Source: Alphaproteobacteria bacterium (GTDB lineage: Bacteria; Pseudomonadota; Alphaproteobacteria; Paracaedibacterales; VGCI01). Taken from it: DNA of 33,172 bases. A program made the position numbers and the translations under genes. Shown here piece by piece: positions 9,560 to 33,172 of the stretch. The stretch's first letter is position 1; every line of letters begins with the position of its first letter. The stretch spans positions 1 through 33,172 of the forward strand of contig JAJONN010000036.1 of assembly GCA_021323455.1 (NCBI GenBank), read 5' to 3'. Below the pieces are notes generated by a model. The model was not told the origin of the DNA. It ran no database searches and saw only the letters and a program-made list of their open reading frames with translations.

Positions 9560-10138
9560 ATGGTAGTAAATAAAAATAAACCCTACATTATCTTGATCAC
9601 AGGCGCTTCGGGCAGTGGAAAAACGGCAGCTTTAAAAACTCTTGAGCAAAAGCTTTCCTCTGATTTAGCGTCGATCAATTATTTTGATGATATGGGGATA
9701 CCCAGCGCTGATGAGATGGTTGCAAAGTACGGTTCTGGCGAAAAATGGCAGGAATGGGCAATACACGCTTGGATTGACAAGCTTGTTCAAATAGCAGATA
9801 AAAAGATTGCCATTTTAGAAGGTTCCTTTCACCCCGAATTTGCCATATCTCGCTTGCAAGAGTTGGGCAGAACGAATTATTTACTGATCTGCCTTCATGC
9901 TACCAAAGCCATACGAGAAGAAAGGCTGACTTTATACCGAAAACAACCAGAACTTGCCATACAAGATATGGAAAATTATGCCCAAGTTTTGAAAAAGAAG
10001 ACAGTTGATTTAGGAGGTATGGTCGTTGATTCAACAAATAGAACTATTGGCGAAGTTGAGCAAGAAATATCCAATTTAATTTTTAAATATGATATGGAAT
10101 CTATTCTTATTCATTCAAAAGATGGAAAGACAAGATAA
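9560..10138 (+). CDS. P-loop NTPase / predicted small-molecule kinase
   Basis: A 192-residue soluble protein with an N-terminal Walker A loop, GASGSGKT (about residues 15-22), in the arrangement of nucleoside-kinase-like P-loop proteins. A hydrophobic beta-strand ending in Glu, KKIAILEG, may serve as Walker B. HATKAIREERLTLYRK provides the Arg-rich lid-like helix common in such kinases. The substrate cannot be deduced. There is no clear Shine-Dalgarno sequence before the ATG. It is convergent with the hydrolase gene and has no evident operon partner. Confidence 0.65.
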   Translation: MVVNKNKPYIILITGASGSGKTAALKTLEQKLSSDLASINYFDDMGIPSADEMVAKYGSGEKWQEWAIHAWIDKLVQIADKKIAILEGSFHPEFAISRLQELGRTNYLLICLHATKAIREERLTLYRKQPELAIQDMENYAQVLKKKTVDLGGMVVDSTNRTIGEVEQEISNLIFKYDMESILIHSKDGKTR

Positions 10139-10203
10139 TTCAAATTATGGTTTTACCCCTTTTTTCTCAGGTTCTTTCCGCCTACACAGGGTCAGGTAGT
10201 TTT

Positions 10204-10971
10204 TTATAGATTCAGAAATCTATCGATCATTGCATTGACTTGGCTTGGAACTTCTAATGTAGCCCAAGGCCCTGAGTTGACAACTTTTCCAGTTGTTAAA
10301 TGGGGGCATAGATTTCGCAATGAAGGCTCAGAGCAGAAAGGATGGCTTGATTGAATGTTCAGTATAGGCATAGTGCAGTTCTGTATTTTATCGTGACTTG
10401 CGCCATCCCATTCAAGCAGGTCTCGATAGGTAGAAATAAGAGCTGGCCTTGAGATCATGTCGAAAGCTTTGATCGCCATCAGTTTGTCTTCTTTTGCAGC
10501 CTTAACCATTACAGATTCAACGAGCTGTTGTGAAAAGTTTTTCATGTCAGGGTCTTGCAATTCTTCAATATGGTTCTGTATAAGCTGCTTGACCCAAGAC
10601 TCCATCAATAGAGGAGGATCTATGAGAACGAGTTTAGACACCAGGCCAGGGTTCATATTCGCTAATTCAACGGCAATCACGCCTCCATAATTCAACCCTA
10701 CGACAGTTGCTTCTTTTATTGTAAGCTTTTGGCATAAAGAGAGGAGGTCTTCGGCATAAATCGACGCTGCATAATGCGTCTTCGGCTTGTCGCTCTCACC
10801 ATGTCCCCGTAAATCAACATTAATAACTCTGCCTTTCTGGGAGAGATGATGAAATGGATGTTTCATAAAATGAAGGTTGCCACCAGCATTATGGATAAGG
10901 ATAAATGATTGTTTACCTGTCCCCTTTATAAAATAATTTAAACTGATGCCATTACATAATATTTCTGGCAT
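10204..10971 (-). CDS. Alpha/beta-hydrolase-fold protein lacking the catalytic triad
   Basis: A 255-residue alpha/beta hydrolase fold: an HNAGG oxyanion-hole region (residues 27-31), VDLRGHGESDKP after strand 4, the nucleophile-elbow strand, VLIDPP, and the C-terminal LEVPSQVNAMIDRFL helix. At the elbow the motif is G-L-N-Y-G, so Asn94 stands where Ser, Cys or Asp is required. The acid position reads SSHPF (His210) where Asp is usual, and the base position reads SGPW (Pro235) where GHW is usual. All three triad positions appear replaced while the fold motifs are kept, pointing to a pseudoenzyme or a recently inactivated hydrolase. It is divergent from the GT2 gene. The former substrate is unknown. 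Confidence 0.8.
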   Translation of the reverse strand: MPEILCNGISLNYFIKGTGKQSFILIHNAGGNLHFMKHPFHHLSQKGRVINVDLRGHGESDKPKTHYAASIYAEDLLSLCQKLTIKEATVVGLNYGGVIAVELANMNPGLVSKLVLIDPPLLMESWVKQLIQNHIEELQDPDMKNFSQQLVESVMVKAAKEDKLMAIKAFDMISRPALISTYRDLLEWDGASHDKIQNCTMPILNIQSSHPFCSEPSLRNLCPHLTTGKVVNSGPWATLEVPSQVNAMIDRFLNL

Positions 10972-11141
10972 TTCTTTTTGTTACCTCTCCGCTTTAAGAA
11001 CAAAAGCACCTTCTAGCTTATAAAGTCTATCCTTCTTGAAAAAGCATGCCAACAGGATTTCGTCAATTTTTTCTATTTTTTAAAGAAATTAACGATTTGT
11101 TTCCATTTTTTACCATAAATTAAAAAGTGAAAGGAAAATCC

Positions 11142-14032: not shown

Positions 14033-15302
14033 ATGCTGGATACCCCTAAAGAAGATACCGACCCGAAGCAACAAGCTGAACCCTGTGTCATTTTCCGTGA
14101 TGAAGCGCTTGCCCATATTTCTACGCCAAATGATGTCAATAAAATTATCTCAGTTGTTGGGTCGGGGACATGGATTTTAATCGCCATGTTCGTCGTCATT
14201 GCGGGCATTGCTCTTGGATGGTTATTTTATGGTAGCATCCCGATTACACTTCAAGGACAAGGCATTCTTATCCCAAAAGGAGGAATCTTTAAGACCGTCA
14301 CCTCCCCAGAGGGTTTCAACATCATCGAAGGTTTACCTGTTCAAACAGGGCAAATTGTTGAAAAAGATCAGATTGTTGCTCTTTTAGATAACCCAGAATT
14401 GACAAAAACAATCGCGGTGCGTACGGAATATGTTGCAGACTTAAAAAAGAAGCGTGGGGATCTTGCGACGGATGCTGCTAAAAGTATCAAAGAAAAAACA
14501 GAGCATTATGAAAAACAAAAGAAAATCATTGAAGACAGCCTTAAAACAAAGGTTGACTATCAAAAACATCTTGAAACAAACCTTGAAAAGCAACGCATAC
14601 TCTTGGGAAAAGGTTATGCAAAGCAACAAAACGTCCTGGATATTGAAAGTCAGCTTAACGCTTTAAAAGAAGAAGATTTACGCAGTAAAGAAAAACTTGT
14701 CCAGCTTCAGAAAGACCTGCTGGTTGATCAGGAGAACTGGACGCAGAGGGAACGAGAAATTGTCCTCAAGCTTACGGATGAAGAGCGGGCCCTTGAGGAT
14801 TTAAAAACGCGCCAAGAAACAACAAAAACCATTAAAAGCCCCTTAAGGGGCAAAGTTATTGGCATCCACCATAAAATCAGAGACAGTGTTGCGGCAAACG
14901 AACCTTTGGTTACCTTGAGCCAAGGAGACGAAACTCAGCTTGATGCTTTAATTTACCTGAATCCCCTGGAAGGAAAAGAAGTCAAGGTTGGTATGGTCGT
15001 TTATATGATCCCAACCCATCTTGAGAAAGAGCATGTCGGTTATATCGAGGGAGAAGTCATTGAGGTATCTCCTTATCCAGAAACAGTTCGCAGCCTTATG
15101 TCAACCTTACAAAACGACAAGCCCGCCGATCAGCGCGCGTGTCAGCATCAAAAAGGATCACCAAAAAAACAAAAAATCTCCCATAGATTTTTTAAAGCTT
15201 TCCCCAGGGACATGGGTTTATGGGCGCGTGATTGTAGAGCGTCGATCTCCATTTGCCATCATCATTCCGGCAATCAAAAAAATGCTTGAGGTCATGCCAT
15301 GA
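14033..15302 (+). CDS. HlyD-type membrane-fusion adaptor of an NHLP-like peptide exporter (frameshifted near the C-terminus)
   Basis: Periplasmic adaptor of an ABC export system, resembling the NHLP bacteriocin-system secretion protein family. The N-terminus VIFRDEALAHISTPNDVNKI precedes one membrane span (about 43-63). A lipoyl-like segment (GLPVQTGQIVEKDQIVALL), a long coiled coil (about 130-260) and the second lipoyl half (IKSPLRGKVIGIHHK) follow. The plain ORF ends at 15289 with an atypical tail. The family-like ending (LSPGTWVYGRVIVERRS, then IIIPAIKKML) lies in the +1 frame and stops at 15300-15302, giving an ATGA overlap with the next gene. The frame switch falls near 15105-15130. GGAAGAGG supports the start. 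Confidence 0.82.
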
Positions 15303-17755
15303 TGCAGCGATTTAGAGTTTTCGTGCATTTCTTGGTATGCGCTCTTCTCTTGGCCATTTCTAAAAGGAAGGCGCTCTTATATGATTATTTCTTAAAAGAA
15401 TACCCAACGGATTGGAAGGCCCGCGGGCTGTCACGTGTCGCCAGATGCCTTGCGTACTCATGGTGCCTTGCCGTAGCACAACATGTTAGGCGTTCCGTTA
15501 GGATAAAGGGCATAACAGCTTGGCAATTTCTGTTGATGAAAGGTTATAATTGGTACCGGGCGATAAAAGCCTTTATGAAACTGGATATCAATCGAAAAAA
15601 AATCCACGAAACGCCAACGTTTTTGCAAATGGAAGCAACAGAATGTGGATCCATCTGTTTTTCAATTATTTTGGCTTATTATCGCCATGAATTAACACCT
15701 GAGGAAGCCCGTGCTGCTTGTGGTGTATCAAGGGATGGCAGCAAAGCTAGTCATATCATCCGTGCCGCACGACAATATAATATGTCTGCCAAAGGGTACA
15801 GTGTGCAGGATATCTCTGCTTTAGAGTCATGCCCGTTGCCGGCTATTATTCATTGGAACTTTGACCATTTTGTCGTCCTTGAAGGCCATAGAGGGAAGTA
15901 TTACTACATTAATGATCCGGCAACGGGCCGGCGGCGCGTCGAATTTGAAGAGTTTAACAAGAACTTTACAGGGATCGTGCTGGTTCTCACCCCAAATGAG
16001 GGCTTTATCCAAAAAAAACAGGAAAATGCCTTAGTAAAGTTTTTGTCCTTGTCTCTCCAAAGAGGCGTCAGCGGCATCCTGGCGGCTTTTTTCCTTAGCA
16101 TCTTGCAGGTCCTCCCCAGTCTCATGGTGGCATTTTCCAGCAAGATTTTTATTGATTATATCCTGGTTAAAAGCCTGTCTTATTGGCTTATTCCGTTAAC
16201 GCTCATATTGGCAGGGTTTGTGGTTTTGCAATCCCTTTTGATGTCATTACACCAGCGGCTACTTGTACGCTTAAGCATGCATTTTAAGTTAAGCTTGGAA
16301 AGCTTGATTGTACACAAGCTCTTTCATTTGCCTCTTCGTTTCTTTGACCAACGGTTTAGTGGTGATATTTTATACCGCCTTTCTGCAGCGGAAGATCTTT
16401 CCAATCTTCTGTCGCTTGAGATTATGGGGGCCTTGTCGAATGTTTTTGGGATTGTCATTTTTACGGTTGTTTTAAGCCAACTCTCGTTTCCCATGTTTTT
16501 TATTATGCTGATTTTCATTGGATTGCGTATCCTTGTTTTTTACCTATCCCGCAAAAGAATAGCGGAAACGAATATCCACTATCAGCAGCAATTCGGTAGG
16601 GTGGCTGGTATTGCTATGAATGGACTGGACATGATCGATACACTGAAGGCCAACAACCTGGAACATGTTTTTTTTAAAAACTGGGCGGCTAATCACGATA
16701 CGTTGTTAAACAAGCATCAAGAAGTAGCGCTCGTTGACCAACGGACCAACATCTTGTTGTTGAGCCTTGCGGGCCTTATGACTGTTGCCTTGTTATATCG
16801 TGGTACTTATCTGGTGATGGAGGAGTCAATTACGATTGGTACCTTAATGGCATTTATGGTTCTTGCTAATTACCTGGATGGCCCCTTAATGACCCTCTTG
16901 GGTTTTTCCAGCAAAATAGAAAAAATAAAGGGATCCATTAACCGATTTAACGATATTTTGTGTCACGAAAACCAGGAGCCCGAAGAGATCGGGATAGATG
17001 AAAATAGCCCGAACAGAAAAGAAATACCCCCTTTAACCCAAGAAATTATCTTGAAAGACGTGGGCTTTGGGTATGCCCCTCTTGATCCGCCGATCTTTCA
17101 TAACCTGAATCTAGTTATTCCACAAGGAAAAACAGTTGCCTTTGTTGGGATGAGTGGCTCTGGAAAATCCACCATTTCTAAAATTATCTGTGGCTTGTAC
17201 CCCATTTCATCTGGTGAGATCTTTTGGGATGGCATTCCGGTTCAAGACACCAGTGTGGCACAAAGAAATAAGCGCATTTCTCTTGTTGACCAAGATATTT
17301 ACTTATTTGACGGGACAGTAAGGGATAATTTAACCTCTTGGGAAAAAAATATTAATGATGAAATATTGATGGATGCCTTAAAACAGGTTGGTTTGTATGA
17401 TGAGTTATTACCGAGAGGGCTTTTAAATAGCCGCGTAGGAGAAAATGGTGCCAATTTAAGCGGCGGGCAACGCCAGCGCTTGGAGATAGCACGCGCCGTG
17501 CTTAGGAAAGCAGATGTATTGATTTTGGATGAAGCCACAAGCTCCCTTGATGTGCCGAATGAAACGCACATATTTGATTCCCTGGGCCAACTGGACATAA
17601 CCACAGTCATTATTGCCCATCGGCTCTCAACAATTCAAAAGTCAGACATCATTTATGTCATTAACGATGGAAAAGTTTCCCAATGCGGAAAGCATGCGGA
17701 TCTTGCTCAACAACCGGGCATTTATAAAGACTTGATGGAATTGGAATCAGCATGA
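15299..17755 (+). CDS. C39-peptidase ABC transporter of an NHLP-like export system, with N-terminal extension
   Basis: Bifunctional inner-membrane transporter that cleaves the leader of a peptide substrate and exports it. Residues of about 105-235 form the C39 papain-like peptidase: LQMEATECGSIC (Gln and Cys), DHFVVLEG (His) and YYINDPATG (Asp), so it looks catalytically intact. Six membrane spans follow, then the ATPase: Walker A GMSGSGKST (about 617), LSGGQRQRLEIARA, LILDEATSSLD and IIAHRLSTI. Members normally begin just before the peptidase. Here about 92 extra residues precede it, with one hydrophobic segment and a basic, Trp/Tyr-rich stretch. GAGG before ATG 15299 and the ATGA coupling support the long start; the internal ATG 15575 has no ribosome site. 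Confidence 0.9.
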   Translation: MMQRFRVFVHFLVCALLLAISKRKALLYDYFLKEYPTDWKARGLSRVARCLAYSWCLAVAQHVRRSVRIKGITAWQFLLMKGYNWYRAIKAFMKLDINRKKIHETPTFLQMEATECGSICFSIILAYYRHELTPEEARAACGVSRDGSKASHIIRAARQYNMSAKGYSVQDISALESCPLPAIIHWNFDHFVVLEGHRGKYYYINDPATGRRRVEFEEFNKNFTGIVLVLTPNEGFIQKKQENALVKFLSLSLQRGVSGILAAFFLSILQVLPSLMVAFSSKIFIDYILVKSLSYWLIPLTLILAGFVVLQSLLMSLHQRLLVRLSMHFKLSLESLIVHKLFHLPLRFFDQRFSGDILYRLSAAEDLSNLLSLEIMGALSNVFGIVIFTVVLSQLSFPMFFIMLIFIGLRILVFYLSRKRIAETNIHYQQQFGRVAGIAMNGLDMIDTLKANNLEHVFFKNWAANHDTLLNKHQEVALVDQRTNILLLSLAGLMTVALLYRGTYLVMEESITIGTLMAFMVLANYLDGPLMTLLGFSSKIEKIKGSINRFNDILCHENQEPEEIGIDENSPNRKEIPPLTQEIILKDVGFGYAPLDPPIFHNLNLVIPQGKTVAFVGMSGSGKSTISKIICGLYPISSGEIFWDGIPVQDTSVAQRNKRISLVDQDIYLFDGTVRDNLTSWEKNINDEILMDALKQVGLYDELLPRGLLNSRVGENGANLSGGQRQRLEIARAVLRKADVLILDEATSSLDVPNETHIFDSLGQLDITTVIIAHRLSTIQKSDIIYVINDGKVSQCGKHADLAQQPGIYKDLMELESA

Positions 17756-17794
17756 AAGGGGCCATGTTATGAGCCTTATAAAGAGGTAAGCGTC

Positions 17795-19906
17795 ATGAAA
17801 GAGCAACATAGTTTCCCTTTTGATGATCCGTTGTTTAAAGTGGCGCCTACGCTGAAAAAAGCACTGTTTCCAACCTTAAGCTCTTTTAATCACCAGCAGG
17901 CATTGCAAGCTTGTTTTGAAGCGCTTTCATTTGTGAACAATACGCATAAAAAACCAATTTTAGATCCGCTTGCCAGAACCGTTGAAGAGGTTGTGAGCCG
18001 TATGGCTTCAAGTTGTGACTTAATTGCGAGGGAGATTCATATCCACAATATTAATGTTGCTACTGAAACAAACCCTGCCATTGTTTTTGAGGTCGCAACA
18101 TCCATGCCAGGTTTGATCTATTATAAAGGTGAAACTGCCTACCTTTATGATCCATTAACAGGTACGAATAAAAAGGCTGATGCGTCTCTGCTCAAGAGCT
18201 ACCAAATGATGGGGTTTACCTTATATAAGAAGTGGCCGCAAGACTCAAAAACAATTACTCAAATGGCGAAAATGGCCTACCAAGAAACCCGCAAAGATCT
18301 GAAGCTTTTTATGATCCTTCAAGGTTGTGTTGGGCTATTGATGCTTTTACAACCTTTTCTGACAGGCGTTATTTTTGATGACGTTGTCAAGTTGCGTCAA
18401 TATAATTTGATTGACCAGGTATTCTTAGGGCTTGTGGCAGCAACGGTTGGAGCGATGGTGTTTAAGGTCGTGCAAAACTTTGCGATGATCCGGTTCCAGG
18501 CGAAAAGCAGTGTTTTTTTAGAATCGGCCTTATGGAATCGGTTGCTCTCTTTTCATCTTCGCTTTTTTAAACTGTTTCGGTTAGGGGACCTCCACGACCG
18601 TTTGACAGCTGTTGATCAACTTCAAAAGGAATTGACAACATCATCCATGAATGCCCTTTCCCAAGGGTTTTTCTCAGTCATTATTTTGCTGTTCATTTCA
18701 TGTTACCTGCCCCTCCTGGGTCTCATTATTTTTTTTGTGACCCTTCTGTTTGGCGCGGTGAGCGTTCTTCTCATCCGACGGATGATCCAGTATCACCGTT
18801 CTGTTACACAGACAAATGCACGGCTGGTAAGCTTCCTGTTTGAAGCCATTCGCAGTGTTGTTAAGGTTAAAACATCCAATACCCAAAAGCACATTTTTCA
18901 AAGGTGGCTGAATATGGAATTCAGCAAGATGAGTCCCTTTATTGGTGCCCAATATTTACTTGTTTACTACCATATTATAGAGTTTGTTTTCCCGATTGTT
19001 ATTGTGGCGTCTCTGTATTTTCTGATGGTTGGCAGTAACCCTTTGGGGCCAACAACTCCCGCCTTGTCGATTGGGAAATTTATCAGCGTACAAATGGCGT
19101 TGGGGCAATATTTTGCAGCTCTTATCGGCATGGTTGGGGTTATTGATCGTTTATTGCACCTTATTCCCCATATCGAACGGGTGCAGCCCATTTTGAAAGA
19201 AAGAGCGGAGCAGGATGGGGAGCAAAAAATTCAGACACTCTTTAAAGGAAAAATTACTTTTCAAAATGTGAGCTTTCAGTATAAGTCCACAGGGCCGCTT
19301 GTGCTTGACAATGTTAGCTTTACCATTAATGCTGGAGAATGGGTGGCCATTGTGGGCCCCTCTGGTGCAGGAAAATCCACGCTCATTAAGTTAATTCTAG
19401 GGCTAGAAACCTGTGATAAAGGTACAATCCTGTTAGACGACATCCCGTTACAGCAGCTTGATCTACCAACGGCCCGGCGTCAAATTGCAACCGTACTTCA
19501 GCACACGCACCTGTTGCCAGGTAGTATTTTTGATAACTTGCATGCGTCCAATCCAAATTTAACGGAAGAAGAAATGCTGTCTCTCTTGCGCCTTGTTGCG
19601 ATTCACGATGACATTGTCAACATGCCCATGGGGTTAAATACCGTCATTATGGGGGATGGTCGCACCTTTTCAATGGGACAGCGCCAACGGCTGGTTCTGG
19701 CGCGATGCCTGGCAAAGCCCTTATCTTTTATTCTCCTAGACGAGGCGACAAGCGCTTTGGATAATTTAAGCCAAGAAATTATTTTGAATACAATCAAACA
19801 AATCCCTATAACGCGCGTTACGGTCGCCCACCGTCTCTCAACCATCCGGCGCGCTGACCGCGTGATTGTTATGGAGAAGGGCAGGGTGGTCGAGCAGGGC
19901 GCATAA
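17795..19906 (+). CDS. Second ABC transporter (permease-ATPase) of the NHLP-like export system
   Basis: Partner ABC protein without a peptidase, matching the NHLP export permease/ATPase family. The first 165 or so residues form the family's N-terminal domain, ending in LYDPLTGTNKKADASLL and GFTLYKKWP. Six membrane segments follow (about 165-430). The ATPase has Walker A GPSGAGKST (about 520), a Walker B DEATSALD and TVAHRLSTI. The ABC signature reads FSMGQ where LSGGQ is usual, so one composite ATP site may be weakened, as in asymmetric ABC pairs. The start is supported by GAGGTAA. It lies 39 nt after the C39 gene and is certainly in its operon. Confidence 0.88.
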   Translation: MKEQHSFPFDDPLFKVAPTLKKALFPTLSSFNHQQALQACFEALSFVNNTHKKPILDPLARTVEEVVSRMASSCDLIAREIHIHNINVATETNPAIVFEVATSMPGLIYYKGETAYLYDPLTGTNKKADASLLKSYQMMGFTLYKKWPQDSKTITQMAKMAYQETRKDLKLFMILQGCVGLLMLLQPFLTGVIFDDVVKLRQYNLIDQVFLGLVAATVGAMVFKVVQNFAMIRFQAKSSVFLESALWNRLLSFHLRFFKLFRLGDLHDRLTAVDQLQKELTTSSMNALSQGFFSVIILLFISCYLPLLGLIIFFVTLLFGAVSVLLIRRMIQYHRSVTQTNARLVSFLFEAIRSVVKVKTSNTQKHIFQRWLNMEFSKMSPFIGAQYLLVYYHIIEFVFPIVIVASLYFLMVGSNPLGPTTPALSIGKFISVQMALGQYFAALIGMVGVIDRLLHLIPHIERVQPILKERAEQDGEQKIQTLFKGKITFQNVSFQYKSTGPLVLDNVSFTINAGEWVAIVGPSGAGKSTLIKLILGLETCDKGTILLDDIPLQQLDLPTARRQIATVLQHTHLLPGSIFDNLHASNPNLTEEEMLSLLRLVAIHDDIVNMPMGLNTVIMGDGRTFSMGQRQRLVLARCLAKPLSFILLDEATSALDNLSQEIILNTIKQIPITRVTVAHRLSTIRRADRVIVMEKGRVVEQGA

Positions 19907-28718: not shown

Positions 28719-31700
28719 TTAATGATGAGTAATAATAAGGTGGGCGCTGAGGGGGTCATTTATGGTAAAGGCTGTATCATGCAGCGTTAAGGAGCCATAA
28801 GTATTGACCTGGTTGCTCACGGTCGATTCAAACGTTAAGATGGTATTTGTAACCCCGCCCGTGGTGGTGGTTGAAACGGCGATACCGCCTGTTGCTGTTG
28901 CGGCGCTGTTTTGCAATAACTGGAAATTCTGGGCGCTGCTGTTGGAGTCGCTCAATCCCAAGTTTGTAAACAAGTCGCTGCTCATGTGAAGGACGAGGTT
29001 GCCACTCATATCGATGATGGAAGACCCTGAGGCAGATACATGGGCAATGTCAACGTGTTGCGCAAGATCATCAATACTGTCGCCTTGCAGGGTCACGTTA
29101 TAGGTTGGGGTATTGTCGTAAGATTCGATGCGCATCGTCCCGTTCGCCGTTATGGCAAGGTCAGACCCGAACGCTGACAGGGAAGTTGCCTGCACACCCG
29201 TGAGCGTGATGGAACCATAGCTGGCGCCATTCGTGCCGTTAAACCCAATCACCGTGTCAGTGCCGTTAGCGGCGACGCCCACCGTCCCGTTATGGGCTGC
29301 GAGATAAGCATCCACCATGGAAGGTGTAATCGTGGTGGCTCCCCCGTTGGCGTTAGAGATATCGTCATACAAGGCTTTCGACAATTGGAGATTTAAGAGG
29401 TTGGAAGCGCCGGACGCCCCAAAATTGTTGATCACCGTATGGCCTTCACCAACGATGCTGCCATCTGTTGCGGAAAAGAGGTTAATGTTGAATATATTAC
29501 TCCCGCTCGAACTGGCATTCATAACACCATTGCCCAACAGGATCGTATTACCATACACGTTTGCCGCATTCCCCGCTCCTGGCAGATCGGATAGTAGGAC
29601 AAAGCCGTTACCTGTAGAAACATTCACATCATACTTGTCAAAATTCGTATGGGTTAAATCATCGACATCTCCGTAGAAAGCGGTAATGCCGCCTGTAGCA
29701 GTTGACACGCTATTCCTGAATACAATGCTGTTGAACGCTATCGAGCTGGTACCCGGTTGAGAGACGTTGTTTAAGGCTTGCTCATTATTTTCAATAACGA
29801 TTGTTGCAATACCCGTATAAAGGGAGGTGTCCACATTCCCACCCACCAGGGTGTTGGCCCCAAAATTGAAAGTATTGAATTGTATCGCGCTGTTGCCTTC
29901 ATAGACCGAAAGTCCCGGCGTACCGGAGAGGGCTGTAATAAAATCAGAGGATTGGATCAGGTTTCCATTGGAACTGGCGGGGCTATTGATGGTGAGCGAG
30001 AGGGTTTGCGCATTTCCATAAAGGTCAAGGTCCCCAGAACCGCCAGAATTGCCTGTCAAGGTGTTTCCGGCCAAGCTGCGGATGACATCATTATTGGCTA
30101 TAGACACCGTTTGCGTCTTGCCAGAGGTCCCTGATGCATAAAATCCGTCTGTTGCTGTAAGAGATATATGTTGGGCAATGCCAAAGGCGTCCCCGCTGGA
30201 AAAAATGGTGTTCCCCATAGTTCTTACGGTGTTTGCTACAACTCTTTCTATATCGAATATTTCTACACCGAATATCAGTAAGCTGTCACCATAAACATTA
30301 ACGCCCCCCGTCGCATTCAAAGATATATTTTGGGCGTCGCCATACGTAGAAGAGGCAGCGTTTGAAAAAATCCATGTTTCTGAAAAAGTAACATTATTAC
30401 CCGCCACATCTATAAAACCAGCTGCCACAGATGTCGTGCCCTGGGCGCTAAAAGTAAGGTTTTCTATGTCTCCCGTGACCGTTCCTGTTCCCGTTGTTGC
30501 ATTGTTATAAATCACCTTATCACCATAAGAGAAGTTCCCAGTCCCAATGTTGTGGTTATGGGTGGCAACCCGGCTTAAATCCGCTCCCCCTCCTATAATC
30601 TCGTTACCATGGCCAATAAAGATGCCAGCGGCGGTTGATCCTGTTATTGTTCCTGTGGCCTGGTCCGTAATAGGCGCATCCAACGCAATAACATGAATGG
30701 GGGTGGTAAGGTTTGCCGTGGCGGAAGTATAAGGGTCATTGGCGGTTACGGAATTGACCATGGCATCAATAATGCCTGTATTGGTTCCATAGTTTATTGT
30801 TCCTGTAGAATCTTGTGTGATACCCGTTCCATCAAGAGAAAAAGACAGGCTGGTAGGGCCATCATAATTAAAGTATTGGGCAAGCGTGGTGTAGGTGCCT
30901 GCCACGCCGGGAATAATAATGTTGACAGTCGGTTGGAGATTGGTGGCAACAGCCGTTAGGGGGTCAGCAATGCTAACCGTGATACTGGCCTCAAGGGTAT
31001 TTCTCAAGTCCTGGAAATTTGGGTAGGCATCTGTTCCAAACCCCTCAAGGACAATGCTGCCGCCACCAGGAAAGATGAGGACGGCTAAGGAGGGTAGTTG
31101 GGTAATACCCAAGCGGGCCAAGAACCCTGCCGACGTTAAGACGCTGCCCCCTGCTAATTGGTTGTAAAGGGGATAAGCCAGCTTAAAGTTCAGGCGGTCT
31201 GAGGCTTCAAAGTCCTGAATGGTGTCGAATCCTTGCATGACGGCTTGCGGTGTAGAGTCGTTGGTCCCCACAATGGTAAAGTTGTAAGTGTCTGCTCCGC
31301 CACCGCCTTTATACGTATTGTTGCCCCAAGTGATTTGGTTACCATTTGTATCTTGTATCGTGTTGCCAGAAACCGTCACGCCATTATAAAAACCTCCCGA
31401 TCCGTAACTTGTTGGATTGTTACTATTGCCAAACTCCTGAAGGTGGCCGAAGAAGGAATCTGGACCGGTGCCTCCGTAGATGGTCGTATTCCCAAATCTG
31501 AAAATATTACCGCTGGGAGCGGCGGCCCCACCGATTAAGGTCATCTGGAGAGCCTCAAAATTTCCATAAAGATTGCCTGACGCTTCGATAAAGTTGCCAG
31601 CCATGTTGATTATTTCGTTGCTGGTGTTGAGGATGCCATCAAATGTCCCGTCATTAGTCATCATAATTGTCTGGCCGTTGCCATAAACGGTGTCAGGTTG

Positions 31701-33172
31701 TCCACTGCCATCATAGATGAGCTTGGAAGCATAATTAAGCACCCCTACGCCTAGGCTACGGGCGGGATTAGAGGTAGATGTAAAATTGAGTTGTGTAGTG
31801 CCGCCTGTAATGGTGGCGTTGCCGTGGCCAATAAAGACAAAAGACCTAAGCCCATAAATATCGCCGCTAACGCCGGCCCCTTGCTGATCGCCGGGATTGT
31901 CAATGAGAAGCCCGTTGAGACCAAGGATGCGCACCGGGTTTGCAGCGCTGGTGTTGCTGAGGACATTCGTTGTATAGGCGTCACGCGCGATCACGGTATT
32001 AAGGGTGGTATTGATGATCCCGGTGTTGCTTCCGAAAGACACCGTTCCATTCTGGTTTAAGTTAAGATTGCCTATTAGATTCCCACCACTCAATACGGTG
32101 CCCAAAACATGGTTTGTATTGAAGACCGTATTAAAAGTATCCAGGTTGGTGGTATTGCCAAAGACAAGGATAGGAGATACAGGGGAGGTAATCGCTGTAA
32201 TGGGGTCGGCCAGGCTGACCGTAACGCTGTCTCTAAGGGCATTTGTTAAATCCTGTAGCACCGGATAAGCATTTGTGCCCCATCCTTTTAGGATAATGCT
32301 GCCCCCGCCAGGAAAGCCCAGTTCTGCTGTGGTGGCTGTTTGAGTAATGGACAGGCTGGCCAAAAACGCTGCTGGATCCAGGGGGAGGCCCCCTGCCAAT
32401 TGGTTATAGAGTGAGTAAACAAGCTTAAAATTCAGGTGGTCTGATACGCCGAAGTTCTCGATGGCGTCAAAACCTTGCATGGTAGACTTGCCAAACATAT
32501 CTGGCACAATGGTAAAATGATACGTGTTGGCACCGGTTCCTCCGATATAGGTATCATTGCCCCAGGTAATAACATTGTTATTGCCAGACTTAATGGAGAG
32601 TACTGTCTCTTGGGTGGTTGGGCTTGGGCTAGACATTACGGTAACGCCGCTATAAAATCCCATGGTTCCGTAACTTCCAGGAGCATTGCTGTTGCCAAAA
32701 ATGTCGGCGTCGCCATAAAAATCATTTGGTCCGACGCCTCCCATCAGCACGTCACCCCCAAAGGTGAGTATATTGCCCGTAACCTCGTTAACGCCTGCGC
32801 CTGGCCCCGTCCCTGTGCTTGTGCCTGTCATGGTGAGGGTGGCAATGTTGCCGTAAATCGTCCCCGTCGTATTGATAATGTTTTTGGAAAAGGTCAGGGT
32901 TTGGCCAGAAGTTCCGGCACCGCCCAAAGTCCCGTCATTAAAAAAGCTGACGTTCTGTACATCCCCATAAACCGTATGGCTGGCAACGCCGGGGATATAG
33001 CTTGTGTCATGAATGAGGTTGGAACCATAAACCAGGCCCAGGGAAGGCGTGGCTGCAACATAATTAAGATCTGGGGTGCCGCCAATAATTGTATTGCCAG
33101 GGGTATTTGTTGAAAAGGCTTTCGCTTTGCTAACATCCGCTTGGTTGAAACCTCCGATAACAAGGAGGTCGG
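28719..33172 (-). CDS. Giant RTX-like repeat protein, N-terminus beyond the right edge
   Basis: The track starts this ORF at an internal TTG (32927), but the frame has no stop up to the right edge, so at least 1484 residues belong to one protein. It is Gly/Asn/Thr-rich and nearly free of Cys. A motif of the form [hydrophobic]-Y-G-[N/D]-x3-[L/I] recurs at least a dozen times (VYGDVQNV, IYGNIATL, VYGNGQTI, LYGNFEAL). Two modules read GG-x-GA-[N/D]-TY-x-F, then a FD-x-I-x-[N/D]-F...D-x-LNFK block, the usual end of RTX calcium-binding arrays. A repeat of about 415 residues occurs two to three times. It is likely an extracellular or surface protein, and type I secretion is plausible. No export partner adjoins it in the window. 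Confidence 0.8.
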   Translation of the reverse strand, partial: DLLVIGGFNQADVSKAKAFSTNTPGNTIIGGTPDLNYVAATPSLGLVYGSNLIHDTSYIPGVASHTVYGDVQNVSFFNDGTLGGAGTSGQTLTFSKNIINTTGTIYGNIATLTMTGTSTGTGPGAGVNEVTGNILTFGGDVLMGGVGPNDFYGDADIFGNSNAPGSYGTMGFYSGVTVMSSPSPTTQETVLSIKSGNNNVITWGNDTYIGGTGANTYHFTIVPDMFGKSTMQGFDAIENFGVSDHLNFKLVYSLYNQLAGGLPLDPAAFLASLSITQTATTAELGFPGGGSIILKGWGTNAYPVLQDLTNALRDSVTVSLADPITAITSPVSPILVFGNTTNLDTFNTVFNTNHVLGTVLSGGNLIGNLNLNQNGTVSFGSNTGIINTTLNTVIARDAYTTNVLSNTSAANPVRILGLNGLLIDNPGDQQGAGVSGDIYGLRSFVFIGHGNATITGGTTQLNFTSTSNPARSLGVGVLNYASKLIYDGSGQPDTVYGNGQTIMMTNDGTFDGILNTSNEIINMAGNFIEASGNLYGNFEALQMTLIGGAAAPSGNIFRFGNTTIYGGTGPDSFFGHLQEFGNSNNPTSYGSGGFYNGVTVSGNTIQDTNGNQITWGNNTYKGGGGADTYNFTIVGTNDSTPQAVMQGFDTIQDFEASDRLNFKLAYPLYNQLAGGSVLTSAGFLARLGITQLPSLAVLIFPGGGSIVLEGFGTDAYPNFQDLRNTLEASITVSIADPLTAVATNLQPTVNIIIPGVAGTYTTLAQYFNYDGPTSLSFSLDGTGITQDSTGTINYGTNTGIIDAMVNSVTANDPYTSATANLTTPIHVIALDAPITDQATGTITGSTAAGIFIGHGNEIIGGGADLSRVATHNHNIGTGNFSYGDKVIYNNATTGTGTVTGDIENLTFSAQGTTSVAAGFIDVAGNNVTFSETWIFSNAASSTYGDAQNISLNATGGVNVYGDSLLIFGVEIFDIERVVANTVRTMGNTIFSSGDAFGIAQHISLTATDGFYASGTSGKTQTVSIANNDVIRSLAGNTLTGNSGGSGDLDLYGNAQTLSLTINSPASSNGNLIQSSDFITALSGTPGLSVYEGNSAIQFNTFNFGANTLVGGNVDTSLYTGIATIVIENNEQALNNVSQPGTSSIAFNSIVFRNSVSTATGGITAFYGDVDDLTHTNFDKYDVNVSTGNGFVLLSDLPGAGNAANVYGNTILLGNGVMNASSSGSNIFNINLFSATDGSIVGEGHTVINNFGASGASNLLNLQLSKALYDDISNANGGATTITPSMVDAYLAAHNGTVGVAANGTDTVIGFNGTNGASYGSITLTGVQATSLSAFGSDLAITANGTMRIESYDNTPTYNVTLQGDSIDDLAQHVDIAHVSASGSSIIDMSGNLVLHMSSDLFTNLGLSDSNSSAQNFQLLQNSAATATGGIAVSTTTTGGVTNTILTFESTVSNQVNTYGSLTLHDTAFTINDPLSAHLIITHH
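30950..32545 (-). repeat. Two copies of a long internal module in the giant protein
   Basis: Encoded stretches at about 32545-32190 and 31310-30950 are closely similar: GG-x-GA-[N/D]-TYxFTIV, LNFKLxYxLYNQLAGG, FPGGGSI[I/V]L and ADP[I/L]TA[I/V] occur in the same order. They are offset by about 1240 bp, which defines the long repeat. A third, degenerate copy lies near 29440-29170. Confidence 0.7.

Follow-up and report, generated by a model that had tools for sequence, protein, structure and literature searches.

The gene at 10204-10971 on the minus strand of the window (the whole 33,172-nucleotide stretch of DNA analysed here) raises the question of what an alpha/beta-hydrolase-fold protein does once its catalytic residues have been replaced. 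An earlier note, which did not give the strand, had described an alpha/beta hydrolase here with all three catalytic positions substituted, and read it as either a binding pseudoenzyme or a very recent loss of function.

An alpha/beta-hydrolase-fold protein with an asparagine elbow

The assignment to the superfamily was confirmed. The reading frame is intact, encodes 255 aa and begins with an ATG at 10971, 12 nt downstream of a plausible Shine-Dalgarno-like GGAGAGG read directly from the same strand (10984-10990). The Pfam model Abhydrolase_1 matched the protein with 56.4 bits, over its curated cut-off of 25.8, and an AlphaFold model built with eight family sequences reached a pLDDT of 89.7 and a pTM of 0.90. 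The top PDB matches to this model in Foldseek were alpha/beta hydrolases throughout (TM 0.74-0.90). No NCBIfam equivalog came near its cut-off, the best being the 3-oxoadipate enol-lactonase PcaD (77 bits versus 255.85), and Pfam Ndr stayed below its own (19.2 versus 23.3 bits). The window gene and 12 homologues from Holosporales, Rickettsiales and Gammaproteobacteria make up a group that we designated the Asn-elbow family and that is described by no database family at cut-off.

The source genome is a 1.73-Mb draft in 104 contigs, in which the protein gave a single match at E <= 0.001, with no close paralogue. Its nearest named relative is a metagenome-assembled genome (MAG) labelled Candidatus Finniella inopinata (L059, the same contig as G002:C23). 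The genus Candidatus Finniella, of the Candidatus Paracaedibacteraceae, has members that live as symbionts in the cytoplasm of cercozoans and ciliates (PMC11909080).

The three residues named in the earlier note, Asn94 (AAT), His210 (CAT) and Pro235 (CCT), were all found as described. Asn94, at the nucleophile position in the motif G-L-N-Y-G (10690-10692, minus strand), is Asn in all 13 members and in none of 67 other homologues, 62 of which carry Ser. The Ser, Cys or Asp nucleophile that marks the G-x-Nuc-x-G elbow of active superfamily enzymes is therefore absent from the entire family. Pro235, at the base position (10267-10269, minus strand), corresponds to His in 66 of the 67 other homologues; within the family the position is occupied by Pro (2 members), Tyr (3), Cys (7) or, in L106 alone, His.

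Position of the catalytic acid and residue changes around the former active site

Alpha/beta hydrolases fall into two groups by the site of the catalytic acid, which follows strand beta7 in group A and terminates strand beta6 in group B (PMC7034887). The window protein has the group B layout, with an acid at the end of beta6 and none in the beta7 turn, but Asn94 and Pro235 stand in place of the group B catalytic Ser and His. The beta6 acid, Asp118 (GAT, 10618-10620, minus strand), is Asp or Glu in 13/13 members (Glu in L060) and stands 24 residues after the nucleophile position, as in E. coli YbfF and est-OKK. In YbfF the Asp of the Ser-Asp-Ser-His tetrad lies 24 residues after the nucleophile. 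In est-OKK, the tetrad Ser-Asp-Ser-His, with the same spacing, was tested by mutation (PMC6182558). YbfF (PDB 3BF7) aligned over its full length to a profile of the family plus its relatives (E 1e-17). These group B, lipolytic family V-like esterases resemble the window protein in that beta6 ends with the acid and the beta7 turn lacks an Asp, and YbfF also has a Trp after its His, like Trp236 here. In contrast, they retain the catalytic Ser and His where the window family has Asn and Pro, Tyr or Cys. LinB-type haloalkane dehalogenases also place their acid after beta6, with the spacing of Asp118 by LinB numbering. Their catalysis depends on an Asp as nucleophile and a His as base, and the window protein has neither.

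The closest relatives outside the family, L066 from an 8-Mb alphaproteobacterium and L095 from a genome in the order of L062, combine Ser94, Asp118 and His235 without an acid in the beta7 turn. They share with the window protein a similar C-terminal LEV-xQ(V/I)NxMI motif, and differ from it in having an HG oxyanion loop and neither Cys213 nor Trp236. When the search for close relatives of the Ser type was extended to the family to which G098 belongs, it returned G098 alone. Among the 67 other homologues, Asp118 was present in 9/9 sequences without a beta7-turn acid and in 11/58 with one (Fisher P = 4e-6), and no sequence lacked both. Because the nearest Ser-type relatives as well as YbfF and est-OKK carry their acid at the end of beta6, Asp118 is the acid of this lineage and has been kept, while nucleophile and base were replaced and the oxyanion loop was altered from HG to HN. 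The reading of three lost catalytic positions thus stands for nucleophile and base, and the acid has to be taken off that list. The residue regarded as the lost acid, His210 in the beta7 turn (10342-10344, minus strand), belongs to the wrong structural element, as L066 and L095 have Ser and His yet no beta7-turn Asp; it varies within the family and corresponds approximately to the place of the extra Ser in the YbfF tetrad.

The earlier note had also considered the fold and oxyanion-hole motifs well kept. The oxyanion loop, however, has changed: Asn28 (AAT, 10888-10890, minus strand), in a loop H-N-A-G-G that replaces H-G, is found in 13/13 members and 0/67 other homologues, whereas 54 of the 67, including both nearest Ser-type relatives, have Gly28. 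FIL[IL]HNAG was among the patterns used to retrieve the members L059-L065, so the motif there may partly be a selection effect; L098 and L103-L106, which came from whole-profile searches, contain HNAG as well. Cys213 in the beta7 turn (TGC, 10333-10335, minus strand) and Trp236 in the former His loop (TGG, 10264-10266, minus strand) are likewise invariant in the family, and occur in one and three of the 67 other homologues, respectively. The window protein shows every hallmark of the family, namely HNAGG, GLN[YN]G, an acidic residue 118, Cys213, W-x-TLEVP and monophyly with the other members.

Altogether 12 residues, among them Asn28, Asn94, Cys213 and Trp236, are shared by every family member but found in neither Ser-type sister. 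Of these, ten fall in five active-site loops that make up 41 of the 255 residues (P = 2e-7), with the loops (oxyanion loop, elbow, end of beta6, beta7 turn and former His loop) delimited by ourselves and with active-site loops being generally conserved in this fold. This clustering indicates that selection acts on the old site despite the loss of nucleophile and base.

Family history, age and genomic context

A scan of genome contigs with the single window protein as query gave no match, while a two-sequence profile detected homologues in Gammaproteobacteria, among them Francisellaceae and Thiotrichales-labelled genomes, and in a Rickettsiales MAG, with identities of 35-42%; L098 and L103-L106 were added by searching the orders around these first matches. 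The family is rare: the window genome was the only carrier among 399 genomes drawn across the phylum, and the seed genome the only one among 369 genomes in the class of G061. In a maximum-likelihood tree the 13 members formed one clade with a support of 100/99, which was still 97/96 after the key columns had been removed. On this tree position 94 changed once and His235 was lost at least twice, and L106 (from G1064) is an intermediate member in which Asn94 occurs together with His235 and Asp118. The change from Ser to Asn therefore came before the loss of His.

The nearest sequence to the window pair was the gammaproteobacterial L106 rather than the Rickettsiales pair, which itself grouped with gammaproteobacterial sequences. 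This branching suggests transfer of the gene between classes, with one relevant fork at a support of only 85/75. A phage or viral origin was rejected, as two scans of viral contigs gave no relatives; the best matches on plasmids were only general hydrolases below 30% identity, and PADLOC assigned the window protein to no defence system.

An orthologue in G002, of the same genus, is 77% identical, not syntenic, and has the same three residues with the same codons. As this genome is independent, Asn94, His210 and Pro235 are not a product of chance or sequencing error. Between the two genes 53% of synonymous sites have changed (dS 0.93, Nei-Gojobori) and dN/dS is 0.14; four further family pairs gave 0.27, 0.19, 0.08 and 0.13, with dS almost saturated in two of the four. 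The gene contains no stops or frameshifts. These comparisons show that the loss of the nucleophile is old and that the gene has been kept by purifying selection, and two of the checks proposed in the earlier note, for such selection and for orthologues with the same changes, came out positive. No copy was found in two other genomes of the genus (99% and 78% complete).

The gene stands alone in the window, with a P-loop kinase-like gene on one side and a PilZ glycosyltransferase gene on the other. The former (9560-10138, plus strand) encodes a 192-aa P-loop protein (AAA_18) with weak Zeta_toxin and mad8 matches, converges on the hydrolase-like gene, and did not turn up in the syntenic slot in either G001 or G003. 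This slot on the 5' side of the glycosyltransferase (9560-11127 in the window; counterparts L112 and L113) is variable: G003 has a glutamine synthetase and a 339-aa gene between an ArnT-like gene and the glycosyltransferase, and in G001 a glutamine synthetase with other genes precedes the glycosyltransferase. The G002 orthologue lies elsewhere, flanked by a 4HBT thioesterase gene and an unassigned gene of 478 aa; on that contig (G002:C23) a second gene similar to the thioesterase follows about 6 kb on (L031 9748-10134, L032 3809-4255). No conserved operon was recognised, since the distant genomes examined had no common neighbours and an upstream gene group was common only to the closely related L064 and L065. 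As part of our best overall explanation, the gene would probably move singly between bacteria, several of them protist-associated.

Proposed history and function

We consider it probable that the window protein belongs to an ancient, laterally spread pseudoenzyme family in which the old pocket has been retained and remodelled, most likely for ligand binding. The ancestor would have been a hydrolase with a Ser-Asp(beta6)-His triad in the group B arrangement seen in YbfF. A single change of Ser94 to Asn, at the root of the family, would have come together with Cys213, Trp236 and a new form of the oxyanion loop (HNAGG). The catalytic His would have disappeared later, on at least two occasions, with Pro in one case and Tyr or Cys in the other taking its place. 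Selection would since have kept the pocket, with a small molecule or acyl-like ligand bound in the old substrate site. A ligand-binding pocket is the simplest reading of the residue patterns, and hydrolysis would have been given up. Of the two outcomes offered in the earlier note, the binding pseudoenzyme is thus favoured, and the recent loss is rejected by conservation across two classes of Proteobacteria, dN/dS values of 0.08-0.27 and the single origin of Asn94.

That the gene has only just lost its function and is decaying has a probability close to nil. Each change is one base away from a canonical codon, as the earlier note pointed out, yet the same three codons persist in an orthologue at a dS of 0.93, the same Asn is found in all 13 members, and the frame is undisturbed. 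Hardly more credible is an active serine hydrolase whose triad was misread by the alignment. The acid was indeed elsewhere, and Ser208, Ser209 and Ser214 lie near the beta7 turn, but the G-x-N-x-G elbow around Asn94 aligns without gaps and is predicted as strand 88-93, Asn94 and helix 95-106, and the homologue alignment offers no conserved Ser or His in place of nucleophile and base: the invariant His residues, H27 and H57, are both shared with the superfamily at large. We also weighed whether Asn94 might turn itself into an Asp nucleophile by deamidation (cf. dehalogenase D-to-N mutants), but put this idea aside because 12/13 members lack the base and Asn-Tyr is a slow-deamidating pair.

Two further readings accept the lost triad. 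The protein might serve protein-protein interaction, as NDRG or neuroligin do, with the fold as scaffold and the pocket incidental; such a fate is known among alpha/beta hydrolases without a triad (PMC7022630) and would suit a small single domain without conserved neighbours. We regard it as unlikely, because the family-specific invariants are concentrated in active-site loops instead of being scattered. In the NDRG family (human NDRG2/3), too, the catalytic positions are non-reactive and the fold is kept (PMC7022630). In NDRG3, helices block the pocket, whereas here some of the strongest conservation falls on pocket residues; NDRG has a separate origin, the nearest relatives of the window family being Ser-type bacterial hydrolases, and the window family is distinct from it. 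A rebuilt enzyme that uses Asn94, Asp118 and Cys213 (in L106 also His235) for some reaction other than hydrolysis has in its favour the invariant polar residues Asn28, Asn94 and Cys213 and the acidic residue 118 around the old site. It seems improbable, as the base position drifts among Pro, Tyr, Cys and His, so that no general base is required there, and a literature search for an Asn-elbow alpha/beta hydrolase returned nothing relevant and hence no precedent.

Several points count against binding as the preferred function. Invariant Asn94 and Cys213 with an acidic 118 could support unusual chemistry, L106 still combines Asp118 and His235, two members of the ancestral triad, with Asn94, conserved pocket residues can also be structural, and there is no conserved gene neighbour to hint at a function. 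More speculatively, and with rather low probability, the old site may have been rebuilt from Asn28, Asn94, acidic 118, Cys213 and Trp236 into an active or sensing site, shared horizontally among protist-dwelling bacteria, for a non-hydrolase reaction or for sensing host metabolites; any role in the host cell would be of this conjectural kind.

To our knowledge, the triad-less alpha/beta hydrolases known so far are mainly eukaryotic. The Asn-elbow family adds a bacterial case with a readable history, from Ser-type sisters through the His-keeping intermediate L106 to later drift of the base, and so provides a natural series for studying how an enzyme may turn into a binding protein, with L106 as a case for stepwise loss. 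It also represents a laterally moving gene common to bacteria of separate lineages, several of which have intracellular symbionts among their relatives.

Elsewhere in the window, a 1402-aa repetitive Gly/Asn/Thr-rich reading frame (28719-32927, minus strand) without an NCBIfam match is possibly a large secreted repeat protein. An NHLP/NHLM-type bacteriocin export locus occupies 14033-19906 on the plus strand; its HlyD-like secretion protein matched TIGR03794 above cut-off, and its two ABC transporters matched TIGR03796 and TIGR03797 best, both under cut-off. The HlyD reading frame appears frameshifted near the C-terminus, as the C-terminal part seems to go on in a different frame (15021-15302).
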